Of a stretch of DNA of 64,000 nucleotides, positions 1 through 36,626 are shown piece by piece (within the stretch, counting starts at the first letter, position 1; every line of letters begins with the position of its first letter). The translations under genes and the position numbers were made by a program. The stretch spans positions 4,588,001 to 4,652,000 of the forward strand of contig JAPNXP010000007.1 of the NCBI GenBank assembly GCA_028753945.1. Reading direction: 5' to 3'. The notes beneath the pieces were generated by a model. The model made no database searches, was not told the DNA's origin, and worked only from the letters and a program-made list of their open reading frames with translations. This DNA comes from Hexactinellida sp. DTS-2022. Lineage: Eukaryota > Porifera > Hexactinellida.

Positions 1-1126
1 TACCGTTTAGGAATCTGAGGTGCCCTTTACCTAAAGAATGCTTGAGTACTCCAGCAGGTGAGAAGATACGGATTTCGTTAGTTGATAAGTCAGTAATTAT
101 GAAGTTTCCTCTCTTATCTATTCTGAAGAAGAAGGCTGATGTCATTTGTTGCTCTTGCCCTGCTAACTCTATCTTCCTCAGATAATTACCGTCTCTGTTG
201 TAGCAGTAGATTATATTCTGGGTTTGAGTTATAATATGGAGAGTATCTGCGTGTATAGCGATGTCAGTTGGTAATTCGATTTCTCCATAACTGAATTGTT
301 GAACAAATTGGAGATCTAAGTTAAATACTTGGATTCGTTGTGCATTCAAATCACAGACATACACGAATCCCGCTTCATAACACAATCCTGTTATTCCATT
401 AAAGCATCCTGGTGTAAGACCTCTGGAGCCAGTTTTCTTAATGAACTGTCCGGCTAGACTACACCTTAACAAACATTCTCTAGCTTCATCTGTCACAAAC
501 ACTCCTTCTGACACACAAATACCACGTGGCTCTTTCAAGTGGTCAGTTCCGAATGAACGCAAATATTCTCCTTCTATATTCATTACTTGAATACGACTGT
601 TACTAAAATCAGCTATGAAAACCTCATTCGTATTTCTATCGATTGATATTCCACTGGGATTAATAAACTCTCCATTTCTTCTACCACTCTTACACTTCTT
701 AAGAAAAGGATTTACTTTCCCCACATACTCTGGTATCAGTTCTATCAAATCAGTCTCTTCTATCGCTTTACGAATCTTACCAGAGAAACAACGAAACTCA
801 ACAAACTCCAGATTCTCTACTGCTACCTTCTCAGCTGTTCTCAACTCAATGTCTCTATCTAGCCTCTCTTTCATAGCGTCTAGGGACTGGCCTACTAAGT
901 TGCTAACCATTGTATCCTGAATGGTATTCCTTGTTATCCTCAGCTGACTAATCGCTTCCTCCAATTCCACATCCTATCGTGTCCCTCTTTGATCCTGGCA
1001 AGTCGGGACAGGAGCTGTCCTGCGTTCCTCGAGACTCCTTAACAGCTCTTCGAACGTGCGAAGTATCTCTAACTTAAGGGCTTCTAGCCTAGCGTCGATA
1101 GCGAATGCTTCTCTTGCAGCGGCCAT
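1..1126 (-). CDS. NHL-repeat protein, 3' end cut by the window; one in-frame stop near the start
   Basis: The minus strand reads open from the window edge up to an ATG at 1124-1126, except for one TAG at 974-976 (codon 51). The N-terminal part is charged and helical, like the coiled region ahead of NHL repeats. From about 560 down to 1 there are repeated NHL-type units with G-I-(C/S) and V-(F/T)-V/I-(T/A)-D cores, such as PSGISIDRNTNEVFIADFSN. NHL repeats build a beta-propeller used for protein or RNA binding, often in TRIM-type E3 ligases; no RING or B-box is visible here. The TAG could be a real nonsense mutation, a sequence error, or a sign that translation starts downstream (ATG near 910). 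The propeller frame stays open past the stop. Confidence 0.75.
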
Positions 1127-1159
1127 TTGGTATTAAGTTATTTGTCTAATAATTATGGG

Positions 1160-1310
1160 ATGTACACAACTTTAGAAAAATCTAAAATTATACCTGTGCC
1201 GACAACATGTTCTTTTGGAGGCACTATATTTTGTTGGGTGGTTGGTTGATTGATGGTGCCTCCATAAGAAAATGGTGTCTGCACAGGTGTAATTTTAGAT
1301 TTTACGTCAT
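1160..1310. repeat. MITE-like palindrome, CTGTGCCGAC family
   Basis: Two inverted arms carry AAATCTAAAATTA...CTGTGCCGACA and its complement around a short GGAGGCAC / GTGCCTCC core. The same design recurs at about 2470-2590 and 37160-37290. No coding capacity. Target-site duplication not resolved. Confidence 0.55.
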
Positions 1311-1690
1311 GCATCATCACCAAAAATGTGTTAAACCATTTCACAAAGGGTAAAGTTAAATTTATTTCGTAATTATTTGGAATAGTTAACTATTAATTCA
1401 GATACATTTCCCTATAATATTTGAATCCAGCACACTAAGTTATCCCCTATAAACAAATTGGAAGCGTCTTTATATGTAGTATGTCAAATACAGACGGTAT
1501 TAATTGTAATTTAATTTTTTAGTATATTTATTGTACATGCGTATTCTTGTATGAGGAAATTAACACACAATCTGACATTGTTAGGGAATATAATCTTATT
1601 CTCAATTAGAAAATAGAAGCCTACTCGATCTCACAAGTTGTATCAATATAATGATCACAAGTTGAAATAATAGAATTAGATATACCTTAT

Positions 1691-1837
1691 CAGGGGCGGC
1701 GGAAGCGATCAGGCCGGTCAGGTCATGGCCTGACCACTTTTATAAAGTGGCCAGGCCAATAGCCTTAACACGTATGTCACTAGTTCCGCCGGTCAAGCCA
1801 TGGCCTGACCACTTTATAACTGATTCCGCCGTCCCTG
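1691..1837. mobile_element. GC-rich MITE with 5-bp TSD (CAGGGGCGGCGGAAGC ends)
   Basis: This 147-bp palindromic element starts CAGGGGCGGCGGAAGC and ends with a diverged complement (TTCCGCCGTCCCTG). The flanking direct repeat is cttat (1686-1690 and 1838-1842). A sister copy at 38178-38325 has 5-bp repeats gaatg, which supports 5 bp for this family. It sits at the edge of the ACGCG-rich MITE at 1839-2404; the other copy of that MITE (62 kb) has the join without this insert. Confidence 0.75.
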
Positions 1838-1838
1838 C

Positions 1839-2404
1839 TTATTATAGGAAATTAACGCGCCATGAAATTAACGCGAAGGAAATTAACGCTCCATGAAATT
1901 AACGCGAATTGGAGCTGAACATTTTCAAATACATTAAATTAACGCGAATATATTTTAGAAAAAATTTCAGGATTATTAATCTCCTGATTAAATATTATTT
2001 ATTGTGCCCAAATAGTCTTCCAATCTACTTGATAGACATAGTACAGGTAAACCTCCCAAAGCGGCACCCATCGGGAGAATGATTTTGTGCCGCTTCTCGG
2101 AGGTTGCCGCTTTGGGAGGTTGCTCGTAAGGTAAAACTCCCAAAGCGGCACCCATCGGGAGAATGATTTTGTGCCGCTTCTCGGAGGTTGCCGCTACTCG
2201 GAGGTGCCGCTTTGGGAGGTTTACCTGTATATCCTTTCAACCTAGTTGCACATCTGAAAATATGTAGCTCGGATTTTGTCCATCCATTGTATAATCTTGA
2301 TAAATAGCAGGAAATTAACGCTCCATGAAATTATCGCGAAGGAAATTAACTCGATTTGGAGAAATTCGCGTTAATTTCATGGCGCGTTAATTTCCTATAA
2401 TAAG
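1839..2404. mobile_element. Palindromic MITE, ATTAACGCG family
   Basis: Both ends carry TTATTATAGGAAATTAACGC in inverted orientation, and the interior repeats GAAATTAACGCG motifs. A second, shorter copy lies at 62041-62411. The longer size here comes from a nested TA-flanked MITE (2044-2227). It is non-coding, and the superfamily is unresolved. Confidence 0.65.
2044..2227. mobile_element. TA-flanked MITE (CAGGTAAACCTCCCAAAGCG ends)
   Basis: Perfect inverted ends CAGGTAAACCTCCCAAAGCG are flanked by TA on both sides, as expected of the Tc1/mariner/pogo group. The interior is built from two near-identical AAGCGGCACCCATCGGGAGA units. The matching position in the 62-kb copy of the host repeat has a single TA and no insert, so the boundaries are secure. 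Confidence 0.8.
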
Positions 2405-2469
2405 GTAACACTTTCAATTGAATAGAAGTATTAGTAAACAAAGGAAATTAACAACTTAATCTGTGGAGA

Positions 2470-2590
2470 AGATACGTAGCAAAAATCTAAAATTACAGCT
2501 GTGCCGACTGCATGTTCCTTTGTAGGCACTATATTTTGGTGGTTTGTGGATTTATAATGCCTCCAAAATAAAATTTCCGATGGAAATCCG
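2470..2590. repeat. Second CTGTGCCGAC-family palindrome (one arm decayed)
   Basis: Carries AAAATCTAAAATTACAGCTG then TGCCGAC and a GGCAC / GTGCC-type core like the 1.2-kb and 37.2-kb copies; the right arm has diverged. Confidence 0.45.
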
Positions 2591-3007
2591 ACAGAACGAT
2601 TTAGAATTGTGCATTTTATAGTATACAACTATAGTAGGAATAAGCACGCAAAAATTAGTAGCGTCAAAGTTTTGGTGAACCACATAACGATTTCCAGCTT
2701 CATTTCAAGTTCATTTCACGGAGTTAGCCAATAAAATGAAGTTTATAGTTTTGTTAATTAACATAAAAAGTACCGCTTAAATTATTAAATATCCACTATA
2801 ACTCACTTGATAATGCGATGATAATAACAAGGAACGAACTTTTGTTGTTGTTGTTGTTGTTGTTTGGTATTGTTTTGTATGTGATATATTGATAACTCAA
2901 TGGGTTATATTTTAGATATTTTAGCTATAACTTTAAAATATATAGTAAGCAAAGTTTTCTCAATTTGTGGGTCTACAAAATTGGCTCAACAATCAGATTG
3001 CCTCAAC
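2591..3007. other. Gene-free AT-rich spacer with a short (GTT)n run
   Basis: No credible coding frame. A GTT microsatellite lies at about 2843-2862. The last 7 bases (3001-3007, cctcaac) are the left target-site duplication of the foldback element that follows. Confidence 0.5.
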
Positions 3008-4074
3008 CATAGCAATCTATACATAAGGCAATGGTACGCACACAAATTTCTGGACCAGGGATTAACTAGTATAGTCAACTAAATAGATGCAACTAAATTA
3101 TTCTTCGAAATAACTAATCCAGGGTGCTTCTACTTATATAATTGTTTTTTATAAAGGTAGTCATATACAAGACGCATATTTTTGAGCTGCCACTTGGGCG
3201 AAATGACGTCACTGTATTGTCTAATAGTCCAAATATGCCAAAACTTTGAACGCATGTAAAATGTTCAATTTCGCTTTTAAAAACAAATCGCTGTGACTAA
3301 CCCATGTAGGAGGCATTTACATAAAATATCTCAGAATCAATTATGGGATGTTTACACATTCCTCTGTTGCTATGGAAACGTGATTTCAATGCTTGAGGTC
3401 ATATCTCGAGAAGAAATATAGTCACAGCTTAGTCAATGGATCCAATTGATAGCCCGTCCTCAACTTCCTATTCAATGATAATACACTTCGATGCTCCATC
3501 TCCAACCAATTTTCTGAGAATTGTGATTATTGTAATATACATTCAAACGGTTATACACATTTTGCGAACAATTGGTTGGAGATAGAGCATCGAAATGTAT
3601 TATCTTTGAATAGGAAGTTGAGGACGGGCTATCAATTGAATCCATTAACTAAGCTGTAACTATATTTCTTCTCGAGATATGACCTCAAGCATTGAAATCA
3701 CGTGTCCATAGCAACAGAGGAATGTGTCAACATTCCATAATTGATTCTGAGATATTTTATGTAAAATGACTCTTAGATGGGTTAGTCACAGCGATTTGTT
3801 TTAAAAAGCGAAATTGAACATTTTACATGCGTTCAAAGTTTTGGCATATTTGGACTATTAGACAATACAGTGACGTCATTTCGCCCAAGTGGCAGCTCAA
3901 AAATATGCGTCTTGTATATGACTACCTTTATAAAAAACAATTATATAAGTAGAAGCACCCTGGATTAGTTATTTCGAAGAATAATTGAGTTGCATCTATT
4001 TAGTTGACTATACTAGTTAATCCCTGGTCCAGAAATTTGAGTGCGTACCATTGCCTTATGTATAGAATGCTATG
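3008..4074. mobile_element. 1.07-kb foldback element with 7-bp TSD
   Basis: Two arms of about 500 bp are inverted copies of each other around a loop near 3520-3570. The outer end reads CATAGCA(A/T)TCTATACATA, and a 7-bp direct repeat cctcaac flanks it (3001-3007, 4075-4081). It is non-coding. Inside each arm is a palindromic cassette (GGAATGTGTCAACATTCC at 3719-3736, mutated at 3345-3362) that also occurs in the 47-kb foldback and in the PIN transposon terminal repeats. The CAT...ATAAGG end and 7-bp duplication recall P-superfamily elements (7-8 bp), but that is only a suggestion. Confidence 0.8.
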
Positions 4075-4632
4075 CCTCAACTAACAAAACTAATATACGT
4101 ATTATTTATTTCAAAAGTTGATATTTGATATATAGTACAGTCATTTTATGAGAAAATAAGGCTGAACCTCGGACAAATTGCAACAGAAAATGTATGACCT
4201 GTTTTAAGTTCCTAGGGATATCCCATTTAACATATAAAAACTCTTAAGGAATCCAAGTAGGGGAAAGTAGTAAAATTGAGGTCGCCGATTTTATTCCCCT
4301 TTTGAAATCGCCGAAACTTCCCTGTTAGGATGAAATTTTAATTTCTTTTCTAATCTACTTATAATCACCAGATTTGAACTCCGCATTAAAATTTCAGTAA
4401 TTTAATATGTCATGCGACCATATTTGGAGCCATATTTCCCTGGCAACCCCAAAATATCTCAGGAATGTAACAACATTCCATTCCTTTTATAAAATTTCCT
4501 CCAATCGAGTGACACCTCTTTCGACTCCTCCCATCAATATGAGACTAACTAGACAAAATACAACTTTCGGAATTGTGAATTGGTCATATTCCTGTGAAAA
4601 GTATTCTAACGAAATAAAACTTATTCAAACTC

Positions 4633-5589
4633 TTAAATCGTGGAATCTTCTGATAGTTCAAACGAAACTTCTTCATCTAATTCAATGTGATTAGAATTGA
4701 TGCATCCTGCCCCTCTGCAATTCCCACATGCTGCCGAGCACTCCATTCCATGCTTTTTGCATGTACATCTTAAACTACTGCAATCTGACTGGTAGTTGCA
4801 TCTGATTACCCGTAAGAGTTCTTGAGGAGCTGGTGCCAAGTCAGTTTGTACAGGAACAAATTCTTTCATCTTAATCCATCCCCATTCTTCTGGTCGAATT
4901 TTATCGCCAAATCCCTTCCACTCCTGTATCTGGTAATAAACCCGAAGGCTGTGATACTTAGCTGCTGATGAAGTAGGGGGTAAACTCTGCGGTTGCACAT
5001 GTGAAGTGCTAGTTGCGGCCTTCTCGCAGAAACGCTTATATCGGAGCGAGTTGAGGTCCTCCCTATGGTTACCTTTATAAAGACACATCAGAGCATTTTC
5101 TCCTGCCTTTACGACATCTTTTATGGATGCTGACTCTGTGTCAAATACCTTGGCTTGTTCACGAAAATTGCTGTTGGTGTTAAATTGCTTAAGGGCAACT
5201 CCCTTCCCTATGCCATAGAGGTGGGAAGTAGTGTCGCAACCGAGGATAGCATGTAGGAAGAGGATGTGAGTACATATATCAGGTCCTAATTGCATCTTGA
5301 CAGCTTTCATATCCCATACACGTGGAATCTTTGTAGTCTTCTTAGGTTCAGGTCTGAAGAATATGTCATGCGACTCAAGATTGGTGTGGTAGATAAGTAG
5401 AATGATCAGATCCGTGTCATCTCCAATAAGAACGGTGGTGGTTGTAATCGCAGACTCCACAGATTTCTGAACGATGAGGAGATCTGCATCACCTGTTGCA
5501 TGAAATGTCTGGCAATTCACCTCTTGTAGGTAGTTACTAAGTAGTGTGATGAATCGTTGCTTGTTAGTTGTGTTTGCCAGAAATATCAA
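4633..5589 (-). CDS. PIN/FEN-like nuclease domain plus CXC cysteine-rich tail (ORF2 of transposon copy A)
   Basis: 318 residues. Acidic motifs typical of the PIN/XPG-FEN fold stand in order: TGDADLLIV (about 32-40), IGDDTDLIIL (55-64) and LHAILGCDTTSHLYGIGK (112-129), the last like the glycine-rich H2TH motif of flap nucleases. A cysteine-rich block (about 262-297; CNYQSDCSSLRCTCKKHGME onward) resembles a Tesmin/TSO1 CXC DNA-binding domain. There is no ATG; the frame opens with TTG and overlaps the end of ORF1 by 26 nt in the +1 frame. It is therefore probably made as a fusion with ORF1 by frameshifting, or the source copy already carried an indel. The nuclease role is inferred from motifs only. 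Confidence 0.8.
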   Translation of the reverse strand: MIFLANTTNKQRFITLLSNYLQEVNCQTFHATGDADLLIVQKSVESAITTTTVLIGDDTDLIILLIYHTNLESHDIFFRPEPKKTTKIPRVWDMKAVKMQLGPDICTHILFLHAILGCDTTSHLYGIGKGVALKQFNTNSNFREQAKVFDTESASIKDVVKAGENALMCLYKGNHREDLNSLRYKRFCEKAATSTSHVQPQSLPPTSSAAKYHSLRVYYQIQEWKGFGDKIRPEEWGWIKMKEFVPVQTDLAPAPQELLRVIRCNYQSDCSSLRCTCKKHGMECSAACGNCRGAGCINSNHIELDEEVSFELSEDSTI

Positions 5590-7660
5590 GAATATCTGAC
5601 AGAATCAAGCCATTAAGTGCTGAATCGACAATGAGATGAGTTCTTGCTGCTCGTGCAATGGCCTTACCAGTCATTATGTGCACCACTGCATTGGACGCGT
5701 AGATGAGCTCCAGCACTTCCTTAAGCCCTGATTCGGCATAAAGATGTCCAATACAGCCCAAGAAACTCATTTCCATGTGAAATCCTCCAAGACGCAAGAC
5801 TATTTTTCTCAAATCACTTCCCACAGGCTCTGTTACAATTATCATGAGAGCTTTCCACCAGAGTGGTTGGTCAAACGTTATAATAGGTATCACATCATGG
5901 CGGGCAGCATGCTCACACACAAACCTCAATGTAGAATAAATACAGGTAACATTAGTAGAATTCATGTCAATAACCGGGAGGAACATGACTGATGATTTTC
6001 CCGGGTGGGTACCATGATGTACAAATTGCATCATCCCTGACCATCCTGGCCTTGACGAGGCAAACAGGATAGACGTCTTCCAGAGAAGGTCAAGATCTGC
6101 CGTGGGATCTCGTGCTTTCATAAATATTAGCCTCCGGTATGTCACTTCAGTCATCCCAAGATTTTCTTCCCTGTGATATAAGATCGGAATTTGTCCTACC
6201 AAAGATATAGCATTCGAAGTAACCTGTACTCTGCGGATGGGTTTACTAGTCTTAATTGATGGAGTAATAGCAGCAATTATTCCCATTCCATGGAATGTAT
6301 TGTTGCCGTCCAGGGTTTGGATGTTATGATCTACATTGTCTGCAACATACTGTACAAAGCCAGTAGTATATCCAGGTATGTCAGTTCCAAGCGAGACAGC
6401 TGCATTTCTCCCAAACATCTGAACTTCCTGGTATGAGCAGCAGAATCCATGATGATGAAGGGTATCGATAAGGAAACGTGATGCGAAATGATGATGCAAT
6501 TGTACTCCCAACCCTATTTGTAGTGGAGCTAGAAGGACTCGTGGTCTGGATGCTTGCATCATCGCTTGCCCAATAGAAGCAGTTTTCATACGAACATCCT
6601 TCCCAACAATAATTCCCCTTAAGAAATGTCTGAGGCTTTCTGGAAGAAAATTCATGCACTCATCTTCAGACTTGAAAGATTCAGAACAAGGATAGACATC
6701 GTGAGATATTTGTACTTCTTTGATGTCTTCCATTAGAAGTTTTGCAGCAGTTTCAATTAATCTGATTTTTTCTGTTCTATGATCTGCTTTCTTGAGAGAA
6801 TAAAAGTCATGTAGGATAGCTTGGGTTGAGGTTATTAAGGTAACAACACTTTCCTTTCCTTTAATTTCAGTTAGGATCATCCTGTTGGCAAAGTGCTCCT
6901 TGAGTTTTTGTTTCAAGTGTTTGTAACCGTATCCTTGAAACCCTGAACCCTGAAGATTTTCCTCCATAAGGGAAATAAGATCGTTAATAGTGACCTGATC
7001 ATCATTTTCTTCTAGAAAGTTGACAACTTTCAGAAATGCATTATATCTTACATCGTCTTGTGGCCTTCCTAGTTTGGGTCTTTTGGATTTGAATTCGCTG
7101 ATCTGATGAATGGAAGGAATTTGCTTCCCGGTACGGAAATTGATACTGCACACCTGATGGTATAATGAATCTGCAGCATGCAAGTCATGCACATTTAGAA
7201 TACGGGACTGTACAGTAGCTGCCCATTCATCACTTCTTTCACGGCAGGTACTCAAAACAGTGTCTTTGAATTCGATTGTCCTTACTCTAAACACTTCATC
7301 ACAACTCTTCCTCTTACCCACAAATTTAACTGTATTCCCACAGAATAGACAGTCAGTAGCAAAGTGGAACTCTCCCACTGCTGAACGAAGTACATAGTTT
7401 TCAAGGAATGTAGTGGATTCGAGTTCTTTTTGCTTCTTTTGTTTGAATACTCTGGATATTTGCTGTGGATTACAATAATCCTTTCGACAATTTTCATGAA
7501 CTTGTTGTCCGGGTAATGAGTGAATTTGATCATTTCGAGCATCACTTGCACGGTTGATGCTGACACTCCCCTTTTCACCAATGGTAACTGAAGGCCGCCC
7601 TCCTTCTGTAGGTTTGCAACAAATTATGCATAGCGAACATCCTTCCATGCTAATTAGCAA
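5564..7660 (-). CDS. Transposon protein with N-terminal zinc-binding motifs (ORF1 of copy A)
   Basis: 698 residues, starting at ATG just inside the inner edge of the terminal repeat. Two putative zinc-binding blocks lie at the N-terminus: C8/C11/C14/C15 with H55, C58, C63, and C104/C107 with H168 and C171. Conserved-looking core segments follow: HHHFASRFLIDTL (389-401), VADNVDHNIQTLDG (439-452), TFHGMG (455-460), ITFDQPLW (594-601) and LGGFHMEMSFLG (624-635). I recall similar unnamed proteins in cnidarian and arthropod genomes with this core followed by the FEN-like block now in ORF2, so ORF1 and ORF2 look like two halves of one protein. The acidic residues of the core could be catalytic, but this is not demonstrable here. 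It differs from copy B at residue 674 (Thr versus Ala). Confidence 0.82.
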   Translation of the reverse strand: MLISMEGCSLCIICCKPTEGGRPSVTIGEKGSVSINRASDARNDQIHSLPGQQVHENCRKDYCNPQQISRVFKQKKQKELESTTFLENYVLRSAVGEFHFATDCLFCGNTVKFVGKRKSCDEVFRVRTIEFKDTVLSTCRERSDEWAATVQSRILNVHDLHAADSLYHQVCSINFRTGKQIPSIHQISEFKSKRPKLGRPQDDVRYNAFLKVVNFLEENDDQVTINDLISLMEENLQGSGFQGYGYKHLKQKLKEHFANRMILTEIKGKESVVTLITSTQAILHDFYSLKKADHRTEKIRLIETAAKLLMEDIKEVQISHDVYPCSESFKSEDECMNFLPESLRHFLRGIIVGKDVRMKTASIGQAMMQASRPRVLLAPLQIGLGVQLHHHFASRFLIDTLHHHGFCCSYQEVQMFGRNAAVSLGTDIPGYTTGFVQYVADNVDHNIQTLDGNNTFHGMGIIAAITPSIKTSKPIRRVQVTSNAISLVGQIPILYHREENLGMTEVTYRRLIFMKARDPTADLDLLWKTSILFASSRPGWSGMMQFVHHGTHPGKSSVMFLPVIDMNSTNVTCIYSTLRFVCEHAARHDVIPIITFDQPLWWKALMIIVTEPVGSDLRKIVLRLGGFHMEMSFLGCIGHLYAESGLKEVLELIYASNAVVHIMTGKAIARAARTHLIVDSALNGLILSDILDISGKHN

Positions 7661-8384
7661 AATTTCTGATTAATAACAATCTGCACCATGAATATCGTAC
7701 TACTTTTTTAAATAAGAAACTTTTTAAAGAAGGCTCAGATTAGCGAAATAAATAAGGAACCCGAGCCTCAAATTGAGTTAGGACTCCAAAAAACAAATGA
7801 CGTGTATACACAAGTCTAGATGTCTAGTTAGTCTCATATTGATGGGAGGAGTCGAAAGAGGTGTCACTCGATTGGAGGAAATTTTATAAAAGGAATGGAA
7901 TGTTGTTACATTCCTGAGATATTTTGGGGTTGCCAGGGAAATATGGCTCCAAATATGGTCGCATGACATATTAAATTACTGAAATTTTAATGCGGAGTTC
8001 AAATCTGGTGATTATAAGTAGATTAGAAAAGAAATTAAAATTTCATCCTAACAGGGAAGTTTCGGCGATTTCAAAAGGGGAATAAAATCGGCGACCTCAA
8101 TTTTACTACTTTCCCCTACTTGGATTCCTTAAGAGTTTTTATATGTTAAATGGGATACCCCTAGGAACTTAAAACAGGTCATACATTTTCTGTTGCAATT
8201 TGTCCGAGGTCATCTGATATTTTGACTGGACTAATAGTTTAATTTAATGTTTAATGTAAGTTGGTGTATTATGTATCTGGGTACATCTAATTTATATAAC
8301 ATCATATCAATAACTTATAAATATAGATATGTTTTCGTTTAGACCACAAAAATTAGAATATTTAATAGAAACCATTTATATAGT

Positions 8385-27511: not shown

Positions 27512-27855
27512 AGTGTGCAATACTTGAATGACCATTTCATGAAATGAGCGACCTAATGTCTAATCCATGAAATGGACAATACAATTGCCCATTACCCGCA
27601 TTGAGCAATTTGTTTTCCCAATACATGAAATAGACAATTTCACGATTTGCGTGTAACATACTTGAATGACCATTTCATGAAATGAGCGACCTAATGTCTA
27701 TTCCATGAAATGGACAATACAATTGCCTATTTCCCGCATTGAGCAATTTGTTTGCCCAATACATGAAATAGGCAATTTCACGATTTGGGTGTAACATATA
27801 CACATATACACATATACACATACCCACGCAATGTGTTTTAATAGTATAGATGTTG

Positions 27856-28466
27856 TAGGCGAAATTGAGTACCAGGCGAGATTGAGTCTCAATCTCGCCT
27901 GAAACTCATTCTCGCCTAGATTGAGTACCAGGCGAGATTGAGTAATTCTTATATAGAAAATGTTTGAATAAATATTATGGGTTGTTAAAAATTAATTATA
28001 TCCAGATCTAATCCCGCTATTTGTTCACTTCCAAATGATAATACTAGATAAACAAGTATGCTGAATACGAATTTGACACTCACAAATTTATATTATGTCT
28101 ATTTATTGTTGTTATTTACAATATAGTAAAGACTTACAACTGGAATTTGAAAACGATTGACCCATTTACAAATTTATATTACCTACAAATATTTATTCTT
28201 GTTATTGTTCTTGTTGTTGTTATTGACAATATAGGTAACAAGTTTGTAGAATATTATAATTGAACTAGAGACTAGCTTAAGACGGTTATTTTAAGTAAAT
28301 TGCATATGCTAAATACGAATTTAGAATTAACTACAGTAGAGCCTCTGAACAACGGACACCTTGGGACCGGAACCGTTGTCCGTTATTTAGAGGTTGTCCG
28401 CTATTTGGAGTGTCCGTTATGGGAGGCTCCACTGTACTTGCAAATAAGGGCTGTTTGTTGTTTAAA
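27856..28466. repeat. Left arm of a large inverted repeat
   Basis: From AGGCGAAATTGAGTACCAGG to GGGCTGTTTGTTGTTT this matches, in reverse complement, 31965-32301 plus 36403-36464, with about 3.5 kb between the arms once the PIN insertion is removed. It differs from the right arm by a TA-flanked MITE (28334-28434) and a partial internal duplication. Arms contain AACAAGTATGCTGAATACGA, the same word as the Helitron-like tandem units. Confidence 0.75.
28334..28434. mobile_element. TA-flanked MITE (GGACAACCTC family), 101 bp
   Basis: Ends CAGTAGAGCCTC and complement of CAGTGGAGCCTC, TA both sides. The right arm of the inverted repeat (near 31981) has the unoccupied TA site. Confidence 0.88.
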
Positions 28467-31897: not shown

Positions 31898-32874
31898 AGT
31901 AAGTGGCTTAGAAATTAGTATGTATCTCAAATATAAGTGTCACTAAGTGTCTCTTTAACAACAAACAGCCCTTATTTGCAAGTAGTTAATTCTAAATTCG
32001 TATTCAGCATATGCAATTACTTAAAATAACCATCTAAAGCTAGTCTCTAGGCCGGTAAATTCTAATATTTTACAAACTTGTTTACCTATATTGTCAATAA
32101 CAACAACAAATAGACATAATATAAATTTGCGAGTGTCAAATTCGTATTCAGCATACTTGTTTACCTAGTATTATCATTTGGAAGTGAACAAATAGCGGGA
32201 TTAGATCTGGATATAATTAATTTTTAACAACCCATAATATTTATTCAAACATTTTTTATATAAGAATTACTCAATCTCGCCTGGTACTCAATCTCGACTA
32301 GTAGTCCAGTCAAAATATCAGATGACCTCGGACAAATTGCAACAGAAAATGTATGACCTGTTTTAAGTTCCTAGGGGTATCCCATTTAACATATAAAAAC
32401 TCTTAAGGAATCCAAGTAGGGGAAAGTAGTAAAATTGAGGTCGCCGATTTTATTCCCCTTTTGAAATCGCCGAAACTTCCCTGTTAGGATGAAATTTTAA
32501 TTTCTTTTCTAATCTACTTATAATCACCAGATTTGAACTCCGCATTAAAATTTCAGTAATTTAATATGTCATGCGACCATATTTGGAGCCATATTTCCCT
32601 GGCAACCCCAAAATATCTCAGGAATGTAACAACATTCCATTCCTTTTATAAAATTTCCTCCAATCGAGTGACACCTCTTTCGACTCCTCCCATCAATATG
32701 AGACTAACTAGACATCTAGACTTGTGTATACACGTCATTTGTTTTTTGGAGTCCTAACTCAATTTGAGGCTCGGGTTCCTTATTTATTTCGCTAATCTGA
32801 GCCTTCTTTAAAAAGTTTCTTATTTAAAAAAGTAGTACGATATTCATGGTGCAGATTGTTATTAATCAGAAATT

Positions 32875-34971
32875 TTGCTAATTAGCATGGAAGGATGTTC
32901 GCTATGCATAATTTGTTGCAAACCTACAGAAGGAGGGCGGCCTTCAGTTACCATTGGTGAAAAGGGGAGTGTCAGCATCAACCGTGCAAGTGATGCTCGA
33001 AATGATCAAATTCACTCATTACCCGGACAACAAGTTCATGAAAATTGTCGAAAGGATTATTGTAATCCACAGCAAATATCCAGAGTATTCAAACAAAAGA
33101 AGCAAAAAGAACTCGAATCCACTACATTCCTTGAAAACTATGTACTTCGTTCAGCAGTGGGAGAGTTCCACTTTGCTACTGACTGTCTATTCTGTGGGAA
33201 TACAGTTAAATTTGTGGGTAAGAGGAAGAGTTGTGATGAAGTGTTTAGAGTAAGGACAATCGAATTCAAAGACACTGTTTTGAGTACCTGCCGTGAAAGA
33301 AGTGATGAATGGGCAGCTACTGTACAGTCCCGTATTCTAAATGTGCATGACTTGCATGCTGCAGATTCATTATACCATCAGGTGTGCAGTATCAATTTCC
33401 GTACCGGGAAGCAAATTCCTTCCATTCATCAGATCAGCGAATTCAAATCCAAAAGACCCAAACTAGGAAGGCCACAAGACGATGTAAGATATAATGCATT
33501 TCTGAAAGTTGTCAACTTTCTAGAAGAAAATGATGATCAGGTCACTATTAACGATCTTATTTCCCTTATGGAGGAAAATCTTCAGGGTTCAGGGTTTCAA
33601 GGATACGGTTACAAACACTTGAAACAAAAACTCAAGGAGCACTTTGCCAACAGGATGATCCTAACTGAAATTAAAGGAAAGGAAAGTGTTGTTACCTTAA
33701 TAACCTCAACCCAAGCTATCCTACATGACTTTTATTCTCTCAAGAAAGCAGATCATAGAACAGAAAAAATCAGATTAATTGAAACTGCTGCAAAACTTCT
33801 AATGGAAGACATCAAAGAAGTACAAATATCTCACGATGTCTATCCTTGTTCTGAATCTTTCAAGTCTGAAGATGAGTGCATGAATTTTCTTCCAGAAAGC
33901 CTCAGACATTTCTTAAGGGGAATTATTGTTGGGAAGGATGTTCGTATGAAAACTGCTTCTATTGGGCAAGCGATGATGCAAGCATCCAGACCACGAGTCC
34001 TTCTAGCTCCACTACAAATAGGGTTGGGAGTACAATTGCATCATCATTTCGCATCACGTTTCCTTATCGATACCCTTCATCATCATGGATTCTGCTGCTC
34101 ATACCAGGAAGTTCAGATGTTTGGGAGAAATGCAGCTGTCTCGCTTGGAACTGACATACCTGGATATACTACTGGCTTTGTACAGTATGTTGCAGACAAT
34201 GTAGATCATAACATCCAAACCCTGGACGGCAACAATACATTCCATGGAATGGGAATAATTGCTGCTATTACTCCATCAATTAAGACTAGTAAACCCATCC
34301 GCAGAGTACAGGTTACTTCGAATGCTATATCTTTGGTAGGACAAATTCCGATCTTATATCACAGGGAAGAAAATCTTGGGATGACTGAAGTGACATACCG
34401 GAGGCTAATATTTATGAAAGCACGAGATCCCACGGCAGATCTTGACCTTCTCTGGAAGACGTCTATCCTGTTTGCCTCGTCAAGGCCAGGATGGTCAGGG
34501 ATGATGCAATTTGTACATCATGGTACCCACCCGGGAAAATCATCAGTCATGTTCCTCCCGGTTATTGACATGAATTCTACTAATGTTACCTGTATTTATT
34601 CTACATTGAGGTTTGTGTGTGAGCATGCTGCCCGCCATGATGTGATACCTATTATAACGTTTGACCAACCACTCTGGTGGAAAGCTCTCATGATAATTGT
34701 AACAGAGCCTGTGGGAAGTGATTTGAGAAAAATAGTCTTGCGTCTTGGAGGATTTCACATGGAAATGAGTTTCTTGGGCTGTATTGGACATCTTTATGCC
34801 GAATCAGGGCTTAAGGAAGTGCTGGAGCTCATCTACGCGTCCAATGCAGTGGTGCACATAATGACTGGTAAGGCCATTGCACGAGCAGCAAGAGCTCATC
34901 TCATTGTCGATTCAGCACTTAATGGCTTGATTCTGTCAGATATTCTTGATATTTCTGGCAAACACAACTAA
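32875..34971 (+). CDS. Transposon protein with N-terminal zinc-binding motifs (ORF1 of copy B)
   Basis: 698 residues, the same as ORF1 of copy A except Ala instead of Thr at residue 674. ATG lies about 160 bp inside the inner edge of the terminal repeat. Motifs and uncertainties are as for copy A. The frame terminates at TAA directly after SGKHN, 26 nt into ORF2. Confidence 0.82.
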   Translation: MLISMEGCSLCIICCKPTEGGRPSVTIGEKGSVSINRASDARNDQIHSLPGQQVHENCRKDYCNPQQISRVFKQKKQKELESTTFLENYVLRSAVGEFHFATDCLFCGNTVKFVGKRKSCDEVFRVRTIEFKDTVLSTCRERSDEWAATVQSRILNVHDLHAADSLYHQVCSINFRTGKQIPSIHQISEFKSKRPKLGRPQDDVRYNAFLKVVNFLEENDDQVTINDLISLMEENLQGSGFQGYGYKHLKQKLKEHFANRMILTEIKGKESVVTLITSTQAILHDFYSLKKADHRTEKIRLIETAAKLLMEDIKEVQISHDVYPCSESFKSEDECMNFLPESLRHFLRGIIVGKDVRMKTASIGQAMMQASRPRVLLAPLQIGLGVQLHHHFASRFLIDTLHHHGFCCSYQEVQMFGRNAAVSLGTDIPGYTTGFVQYVADNVDHNIQTLDGNNTFHGMGIIAAITPSIKTSKPIRRVQVTSNAISLVGQIPILYHREENLGMTEVTYRRLIFMKARDPTADLDLLWKTSILFASSRPGWSGMMQFVHHGTHPGKSSVMFLPVIDMNSTNVTCIYSTLRFVCEHAARHDVIPIITFDQPLWWKALMIIVTEPVGSDLRKIVLRLGGFHMEMSFLGCIGHLYAESGLKEVLELIYASNAVVHIMTGKAIARAARAHLIVDSALNGLILSDILDISGKHN

Positions 34972-35902
34972 CAAGCAACGATTCATCACACTACTTAGTA
35001 ACTACCTACAAGAGGTGAATTGCCAGACATTTCATGCAACAGGTGATGCAGATCTCCTCATCGTTCAGAAATCTGTGGAGTCTGCGATTACAACCACCAC
35101 CGTTCTTATTGGAGATGACACGGATCTGATCATTCTACTTATCTACCACACCAATCTTGAGTCGCATGACATATTCTTCAGACCTGAACCTAAGAAGACT
35201 ACAAAGATTCCACGTGTATGGGATATGAAAGCTGTCAAGATGCAATTAGGACCTGATATATGTACTCACATCCTCTTCCTACATGCTATCCTCGGTTGCG
35301 ACACTACTTCCCACCTCTATGGCATAGGGAAGGGAGTTGCCCTTAAGCAATTTAACACCAACAGCAATTTTCGTGAACAAGCCAAGGTATTTGACACAGA
35401 GTCAGCATCCATAAAAGATGTCGTAAAGGCAGGAGAAAATGCTCTGATGTGTCTTTATAAAGGTAACCATAGGGAGGACCTCAACTCGCTCCGATATAAG
35501 CGTTTCTGCGAGAAGGCCGCAACTAGCACTTCACATGTGCAACCGCAGAGTTTACCCCCTACTTCATCAGCAGCTAAGTATCACAGCCTTCGGGTTTATT
35601 ACCAGATACAGGAGTGGAAGGGATTTGGCGATAAAATTCGACCAGAAGAATGGGGATGGATTAAGATGAAAGAATTTGTTCCTGTACAAACTGACTTGGC
35701 ACCAGCTCCTCAAGAACTCTTACGGGTAATCAGATGCAACTACCAGTCAGATTGCAGTAGTTTAAGATGTACATGCAAAAAGCATGGAATGGAGTGCTCG
35801 GCAGCATGTGGGAATTGCAGAGGGGCAGGATGCATCAATTCTAATCACATTGAATTAGATGAAGAAGTTTCGTTTGAACTATCAGAAGATTCCACGATTT
35901 AA
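34946..35902 (+). CDS. PIN/FEN-like domain plus CXC tail (ORF2 of copy B)
   Basis: 318 residues, identical to ORF2 of copy A. It lies in the +1 frame relative to ORF1, with no ATG; the frame is open upstream only back to 34931, where a TGA precedes it, so expression requires joining to ORF1. The overlap (34931-34972) contains no obvious intron. The last residues are acidic (ELDEEVSFELSEDSTI). Confidence 0.8.
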   Translation: MIFLANTTNKQRFITLLSNYLQEVNCQTFHATGDADLLIVQKSVESAITTTTVLIGDDTDLIILLIYHTNLESHDIFFRPEPKKTTKIPRVWDMKAVKMQLGPDICTHILFLHAILGCDTTSHLYGIGKGVALKQFNTNSNFREQAKVFDTESASIKDVVKAGENALMCLYKGNHREDLNSLRYKRFCEKAATSTSHVQPQSLPPTSSAAKYHSLRVYYQIQEWKGFGDKIRPEEWGWIKMKEFVPVQTDLAPAPQELLRVIRCNYQSDCSSLRCTCKKHGMECSAACGNCRGAGCINSNHIELDEEVSFELSEDSTI

Positions 35903-36626
35903 GAGTTTGAATAAGTTTTATTTCGTTAGAATACTTTTCACAGGAATATGACCAATTCACAATTCCGAAAGTTGTATTTTGTCTAGTTAGTCTCATATTG
36001 ATGGGAGGAGTCGAAAGAGGTGTCACTCGATTGGAGGAAATTTTATAAAAGGAATGGAATGTTGTTACATTCCTGAGATATTTTGGGGTTGCCAGGGAAA
36101 TATGGCTCCAAATATGGTCGCATGACATATTAAATTACTGAAATTTTAATGCGGAGTTCAAATCTGGTGATTATAAGTAGATTAGAAAAGAAATTAAAAT
36201 TTCATCCTAACAGGGAAGTTTCGGCGATTTCAAAAGGGGAATAAAATCGGCGACCTCAATTTTACTACTTTCCCCTACTTGGATTCCTTAAGAGTTTTTA
36301 TATGTTAAATGGGATATCCCTAGGAACTTAAAACAGGTCATACATTTTCTGTTGCAATTTGTCCGAGGTTCAGCCTTATTTTCTCATAAAATGACTGTAC
36401 TATAGGCGAGAATGAGTTTCAGGCGAGATTGAGACTCAATCTCGCCTGGTACTCAATTTCGCCTGCGACATAGATAAACTAGGACACGTATAATTCGTAC
36501 GTAAATATTCATAGATGGTGTAATAATATAAGTCTCATGAGGTTTCCGTAGTTTTTAAGCGCAAATCAGAGTTAGTTATCTCTTTGTTTATTAAACACAT
36601 TTTGGTACATAAGAAATGAAGGTGCG

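Follow-up and report, generated by a model that had tools for sequence, protein, structure and literature searches.

A stretch of 64,000 nucleotides from the hexactinellid sponge Hexactinellida sp. DTS-2022 (GCA_028753945.1, contig JAPNXP010000007.1, positions 4,588,001 to 4,652,000; hereafter the window) contains two near-identical copies, A and B, of a DNA transposon that an initial annotation had described as recently mobile, a candidate undescribed element and not assignable to a named superfamily. The feature is real and its recent mobility is borne out by near-identical copies at different sites; however, the copies are most likely deletion derivatives of a superfamily already known, and not an undescribed transposon. 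They are very probably internally deleted, non-autonomous cut-and-paste derivatives belonging to the nuclease-bearing AcademX lineage of the Academ superfamily.

Sequence comparison confirms the coordinates (Table 1), the 4,101-bp length, the opposite orientation and the different flanks of the two copies, as well as their TAGT(A/C)CAGTCA ends and the target-site duplications (TSDs) ata and tag. Both copies start with TAGTACAGTCA and finish, as the reverse complement, with TAGTCCAGTCA, and they differ by a single substitution (T/C at element position 1509) that changes one residue (T/A). The terminal inverted repeats (TIRs), previously put at ~415 bp, align between element positions 34-423 and 3689-4078 with 389 of 390 bases identical; their outer segments are unequal (33 and 23 bp), which gives a TIR length of ~413-423 bp. 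The host genome (112.4 Mb in 18 contigs) was searched for relatives, and 96 matching rows were obtained from the best 40 of 266 candidates. The ends and the 3-bp TSD prove to be conserved across genome copies: among 13 loci examined, a scripted check finds an exact 3-bp TSD in seven of the nine that have two coordinates; the two exceptions, L043 and L044, are fragments in which the low coordinate does not mark an end of the element, and the other four loci provide one end only.

Copies A and B are real insertions into older repeats, because their flanks, when joined with one of the two TSD copies removed, align with uninterrupted repeats elsewhere. For copy B, for which the best 40 of 278 candidates were scored, the empty site is 100% identical over query positions 1-217 at C18:2521700 and C1:1618619, spanning the junction at 150, and for copy A three of 41 rows cross the junction, at 93, 86 and 86% identity. 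Two nearly identical copies only 28 kb apart could also have come from a segmental duplication or an assembly artefact instead of two insertions, but this is extremely unlikely, as the flanks differ directly outside the element ends, the TSDs differ and uninterrupted paralogous copies are found for each site. The repeat that holds copy B is present at each of the best 40 of 278 places, one of which also lies in the window at ~27850-28060 (C16:4615850-4616060). The left flank of copy A (window ~3983-4074) belongs to another repeat, its first 92 bases being 99-100% identical at many of the scored places.

Copies A and B are both internally deleted and frame-shifted, and therefore neither encodes the whole protein. 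The coding strand holds an open stretch of 701 codons (open reading frame ORF1; 694 aa when counted from its ATG), which ends in DILDISGKHN followed by a stop codon, and a 323-codon stretch in another frame. ORF1 of copy A, which the frame shift that follows the deletion brings to an early end, still has the FH motif and the two Asp motifs of the predicted DDE core; the 3' remnant carries the GDADLLIV, GDDTDL and GCDTTS motifs. L031, a relative on C18 (5,571 bp, TSD TTA), has 1,429 extra bases at element position 1452/1453, and L034-L036, which are 68% identical to the window element, have ~1.45 kb extra at the deletion site. L035 has a single open frame across the extra segment and on either side of it, and the match of the window protein to this read-through ends at residue 682 and restarts at 1157. 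An intron at the junction was rejected, since L035 is open through the segment and the window copies have nothing equivalent to ~475 residues of the protein. Of the 1,016-aa proteins first reported to differ at one residue, the single difference stands, but one continuous protein had to be rejected, with two open stretches lying in different frames around the deletion. The PIN/FEN-like motifs and the CXC block recognized at the same time are present, the latter reading CNYQSDC in the window copies versus CNCQSDC in L031.

As each copy keeps the two stretches open, and in nearly identical form, ORF1 and the 3' ORF might be two working proteins of an autonomous element. This is very doubtful: the second stretch, out of frame with the first, lacks one CXC cysteine, and the deletion takes out E797, E873, D1098 and D1137 (P0001 numbering), of which E873 is the proposed third DDE residue and D1098 and D1137 are nuclease acids. 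The deletion is common to both copies, and therefore the deleted form has, at least one time, either transposed itself or been copied during a move of its source. A different gap, from element position 2169 to ~2903-2908, is common to L032, L033 and L040; deletion derivatives therefore arose more than once, and this one also multiplied. A Pfam scan of the window ORFs gives no family for ORF1, and ORF2 matches DUF7826 at E 0.01, below the cutoff. Among the best 40 of 266 candidates scored in the host genome, none was recognized as an intact member of the window's own subfamily, and L031 has stops and frame shifts. L045, also in the host genome, has an intact 1,463-aa ORF between ~440-bp TIRs (88.7% identical), with TAGTCGGGTCA ends and, as judged by eye, the TSD GCA.

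Table 1. Positions of transposon features within the window
Feature	Position	Strand	Remarks
Copy A, internally deleted DNA transposon, 4,101 bp	4133..8233	-	Coding strand minus
Copy A, TSD ATA, left	4130..4132		Uninterrupted paralogous sites found
Copy A, TSD ATA, right	8234..8236		
Copy A, left TIR	4133..4555	+	Element 1-423, TAGTACAGTCA end
Copy A, right TIR	7821..8233	-	Element 3689-4101, TAGTCCAGTCA end
Copy A, ORF1, 694 aa	5564..7648	-	N-terminal Cys/His region and first part of predicted DDE core
Copy A, deletion junction	5584..5585		Element 1452/1453; 1,429 bp lost relative to L031, ~475-480 residues
Copy A, 3' coding remnant	4633..5604	-	Another frame; second half of FEN-like nuclease and C-terminus
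Copy A, CXC-type cysteine block	4702..4800	-	One conserved Cys read as Tyr; coordinates hand-counted
Copy B, same deleted element	32302..36402	+	Coding strand plus; opposite orientation, one base different from copy A
Copy B, TSD TAG, left	32299..32301		Uninterrupted paralogous sites found
Copy B, TSD TAG, right	36403..36405		
Copy B, ORF1	32887..34971	+	As copy A except one residue (T/A); coordinates hand-converted
Copy B, deletion junction	34950..34951		Coordinates hand-converted
Copy B, 3' coding remnant	34931..35902	+	Another frame; coordinates hand-converted

The read-through of L035 (1,471 aa) retrieves 329 proteins at E <= 0.001. Among the 120 matches listed, 102 are 1,380-1,600 aa long; the named full-length sources are Porites (a coral) and the molluscs Mytilus, Littorina and Mercenaria, and the named sponge match is a 977-aa partial protein of Dysidea avara that is 74% identical over 66% of the query. 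The ~1,480-aa full-length relative is predicted to contain a P/hAT/RAG-like DDE RNase H core with a helical insertion and also a nuclease of the FEN1/EXO1/XPG fold, to which the cysteine patterns add a putative N-terminal Cys/His region and a C-terminal CXC block. The ORF1 core, to which no role had been given, would be the first part of this predicted DDE/RNase H-fold transposase. E797 was set aside as the third catalytic residue and E873 is preferred, because D869/E873 is invariant in A2, an alignment of 67 full-length proteins, a similar D/E pair (D895/E899) is invariant in the sister alignment A4, and the RNase H match ends ~40 residues past the D869/E873 motif. A profile search of the PDB returned five weak EXO1 rows and one unrelated row, and in a Foldseek search with a model of the DDE region the top rows were unrelated membrane proteins (best E 0.067), while RAG1 and Transib appeared among the weak rows. 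Unlike the FEN1/EXO1/XPG 5'-nucleases, the predicted domain lies within a transposase polyprotein, at 12% identity.

The Academ superfamily and its AcademX lineage are reportedly treated in Repbase and in the work of Kapitonov and Jurka of 2010 and of Kojima of 2020. The nuclease of AcademX is of the XPG type. P elements and hAT (Hermes) have 8-bp TSDs and Transib/RAG1 has 5-bp TSDs, and the P element carries an N-terminal THAP domain; the TSD of PIF/Harbinger is 3 bp of the form TWA, and the ends of CMC (CACTA/Chapaev) elements start with CAC. The window element differs from P, hAT (Hermes) and Transib/RAG1 in its 3-bp TSD, its predicted extra FEN-like nuclease and its CXC tail. The P element does not fit, given the 3-bp TSD and the lack of a THAP match: with Pfam, neither THAP nor a helicase family is found in the L035 read-through (E <= 10) or in six full-length relatives (E <= 1), and no BED zinc finger is matched in these proteins. 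A TSD of the TWA form of PIF/Harbinger, and likewise a TA-type TSD, was rejected on the TSDs, which include TAG, CAA and GCA, and CMC does not fit the ends, which are TAGTMCAGTCA or TAGTCGGGTCA.

The elements are placed in Academ as AcademX-like because the three testable features of that lineage are found in them, namely a 3-bp TSD (within 3 or 4 bp), a predicted nuclease besides the transposase and a predicted DDD/E transposase core, and the tested features of P, Harbinger and CMC are not. AcademX is given 3- or 4-bp TSDs, whereas AcademH, of the same superfamily, has 9- or 10-bp TSDs and encodes a helicase, a difference in TSD length that the author relates to the helicase and the nuclease (PMC10045372); Academ is counted as a DDD/E transposase superfamily (PMC9587614), and 100 curated consensi of bivalve Academ average 5,565 bp (PMC10294476). 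With a 3-bp TSD, and with no helicase family matched in the L035 read-through (E <= 10) or the six full-length relatives (E <= 1), the window element departs from AcademH as described there. It resembles AcademX, as outlined in these papers, as a DDD/E transposon with an extra nuclease, a 3-bp TSD and a full length of ~5.6 kb, and differs from it in that the window copies are 4.1-kb deletion derivatives; the likeness is one of feature descriptions.

A genuinely unnamed superfamily that combines DDE and FEN domains apart from Academ would have to share the TSD length and the nuclease with it by coincidence, which is improbable. No Pfam family is matched by the full-length L035 read-through, and the sole Pfam link near or above cutoff among the relatives is DUF6589 (PF20231), a family of 'unknown function' of which no mention by name was found in the literature searched; both points would suit an unnamed group. 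However, AcademX, within a DDD/E superfamily, is described as having a nuclease and TSDs of 3 or 4 bp (PMC10045372, PMC9587614), and the element size and the presence of Academ in bivalves (Mytilus and Mercenaria among our matches) also agree (PMC10294476). The description as undescribed is probably wrong, because the DDE transposase, the extra nuclease and the 3- or 4-bp TSD fit AcademX. The literature search yielded no transposon paper pairing Academ with XPG or an XPG nuclease and, by title and abstract among the papers listed, no transposon-encoded CXC (Tesmin or CXC domain) protein.

The curated cutoff of DUF6589 is 27 bits. Among the window-type relatives, the scores are 27.8 bits for P0116, 26.4 for P0001, 17.6 for P0015, 15.9 for P0053 and 17.4 for L045, and no match is found in P0003, P0084 or the window ORF1, such that the cutoff is reached in one of six full-length relatives (P0116). 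Proteins of a sister type, represented by L046, score 39.2 (L046), 37.2 (P0122), 30.9 (P0129), 27.7 (P0124) and 17.5 bits (P0176), with no match in P0138, P0142, P0150, P0175 or P0181. DUF6589 passes its cutoff at six places in the host genome and has no match in 14 control genomes. A total of 61 L046-type proteins were found, the consensus of which has the FEN motifs, and a profile comparison of the window-type with the L046-type family (67 versus 21 sequences) gives a probability of 100 and an E value of 4.6e-80 over 1,321 columns at 19% identity. L046 itself (G000 C1:5694000-5702000, ~1620-7561) is a different element with 327-bp TIRs (97%) that encodes a DUF6589 and FEN-like protein; no CXC-like cysteine block was seen in its translation, and a broken second copy lies in L051.

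A third, broken element, L050 (G000 C18:4499500-4506500, ~20-6520), also passes the DUF6589 cutoff and retains the GCDTTS motif; its inverted-repeat pieces are 98-99% identical, its ends are TAGTAGGGCAG and its TSD, by eye, is TAG. Additionally, L047 (G000 C5:3099100-3100400) and L048 (C6:1334300-1335400) are ~0.9 kb foldback non-autonomous elements that consist nearly entirely of inverted repeat (88%), match the TIR interior at ~70-73% and have TAGTCTGGTC or TAATCTGGTC ends; L048, a miniature inverted-repeat element, has the TSD GTG by eye. The scored rows include 23 places of this kind, at 70-76% identity, and of three examined two are foldback elements and L049 is not. Beside the broken element relative in L037, the reverse complement (~1160-3420) has reverse transcriptase-like and gag-like open frames, which by eye are probably those of a long terminal repeat retroelement.

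For transposition, a full-length transposase supplied in trans by another copy would bind the TIRs, and its DDE core would cut both element ends and join the element to the target at positions 3 nt apart, with host gap filling producing the 3-bp TSD. The FEN-like domain would probably remove single-stranded flaps that remain after excision, whether at the ends of the element or at the donor gap. DNA binding would fall to the N-terminal Cys/His and the CXC regions. The deletion most likely came from interrupted gap repair of a full-length copy, with the deleted form then mobilised at least one time; no microhomology is evident by eye at the junction, which speaks neither for nor against such repair. 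These steps of the model are inferred. A more far-reaching proposal is offered tentatively and is rather less likely to hold than to fail: that a P-element/RAG-like DDE transposase and a FEN1-type flap nuclease act in one chain, with the nuclease obligatory for cut-and-paste because it removes the 5' flap from staggered cleavage and sets the 3-bp TSD, and that this CXC-bearing lineage, which extends from sponges to molluscs, still moves deleted copies here. No paper on the Academ transposition mechanism was found in the literature searched, a search that did not extend to the primary Academ papers.

Academ-type elements are widespread, little-studied cut-and-paste transposons, and the interest that remains lies in their combination of a DDE transposase and a FEN nuclease, which is poorly understood and for which an intact relative is at hand. 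Near-identical recent insertions occur in this one genome together with an intact relative of full length and two sister lineages, and therefore the role of a flap nuclease inside a transposase becomes testable. Tying DUF6589 to a protein that joins a DDE transposase and a FEN-like nuclease would, in addition, lend meaning to proteins that are now labelled uncharacterised.
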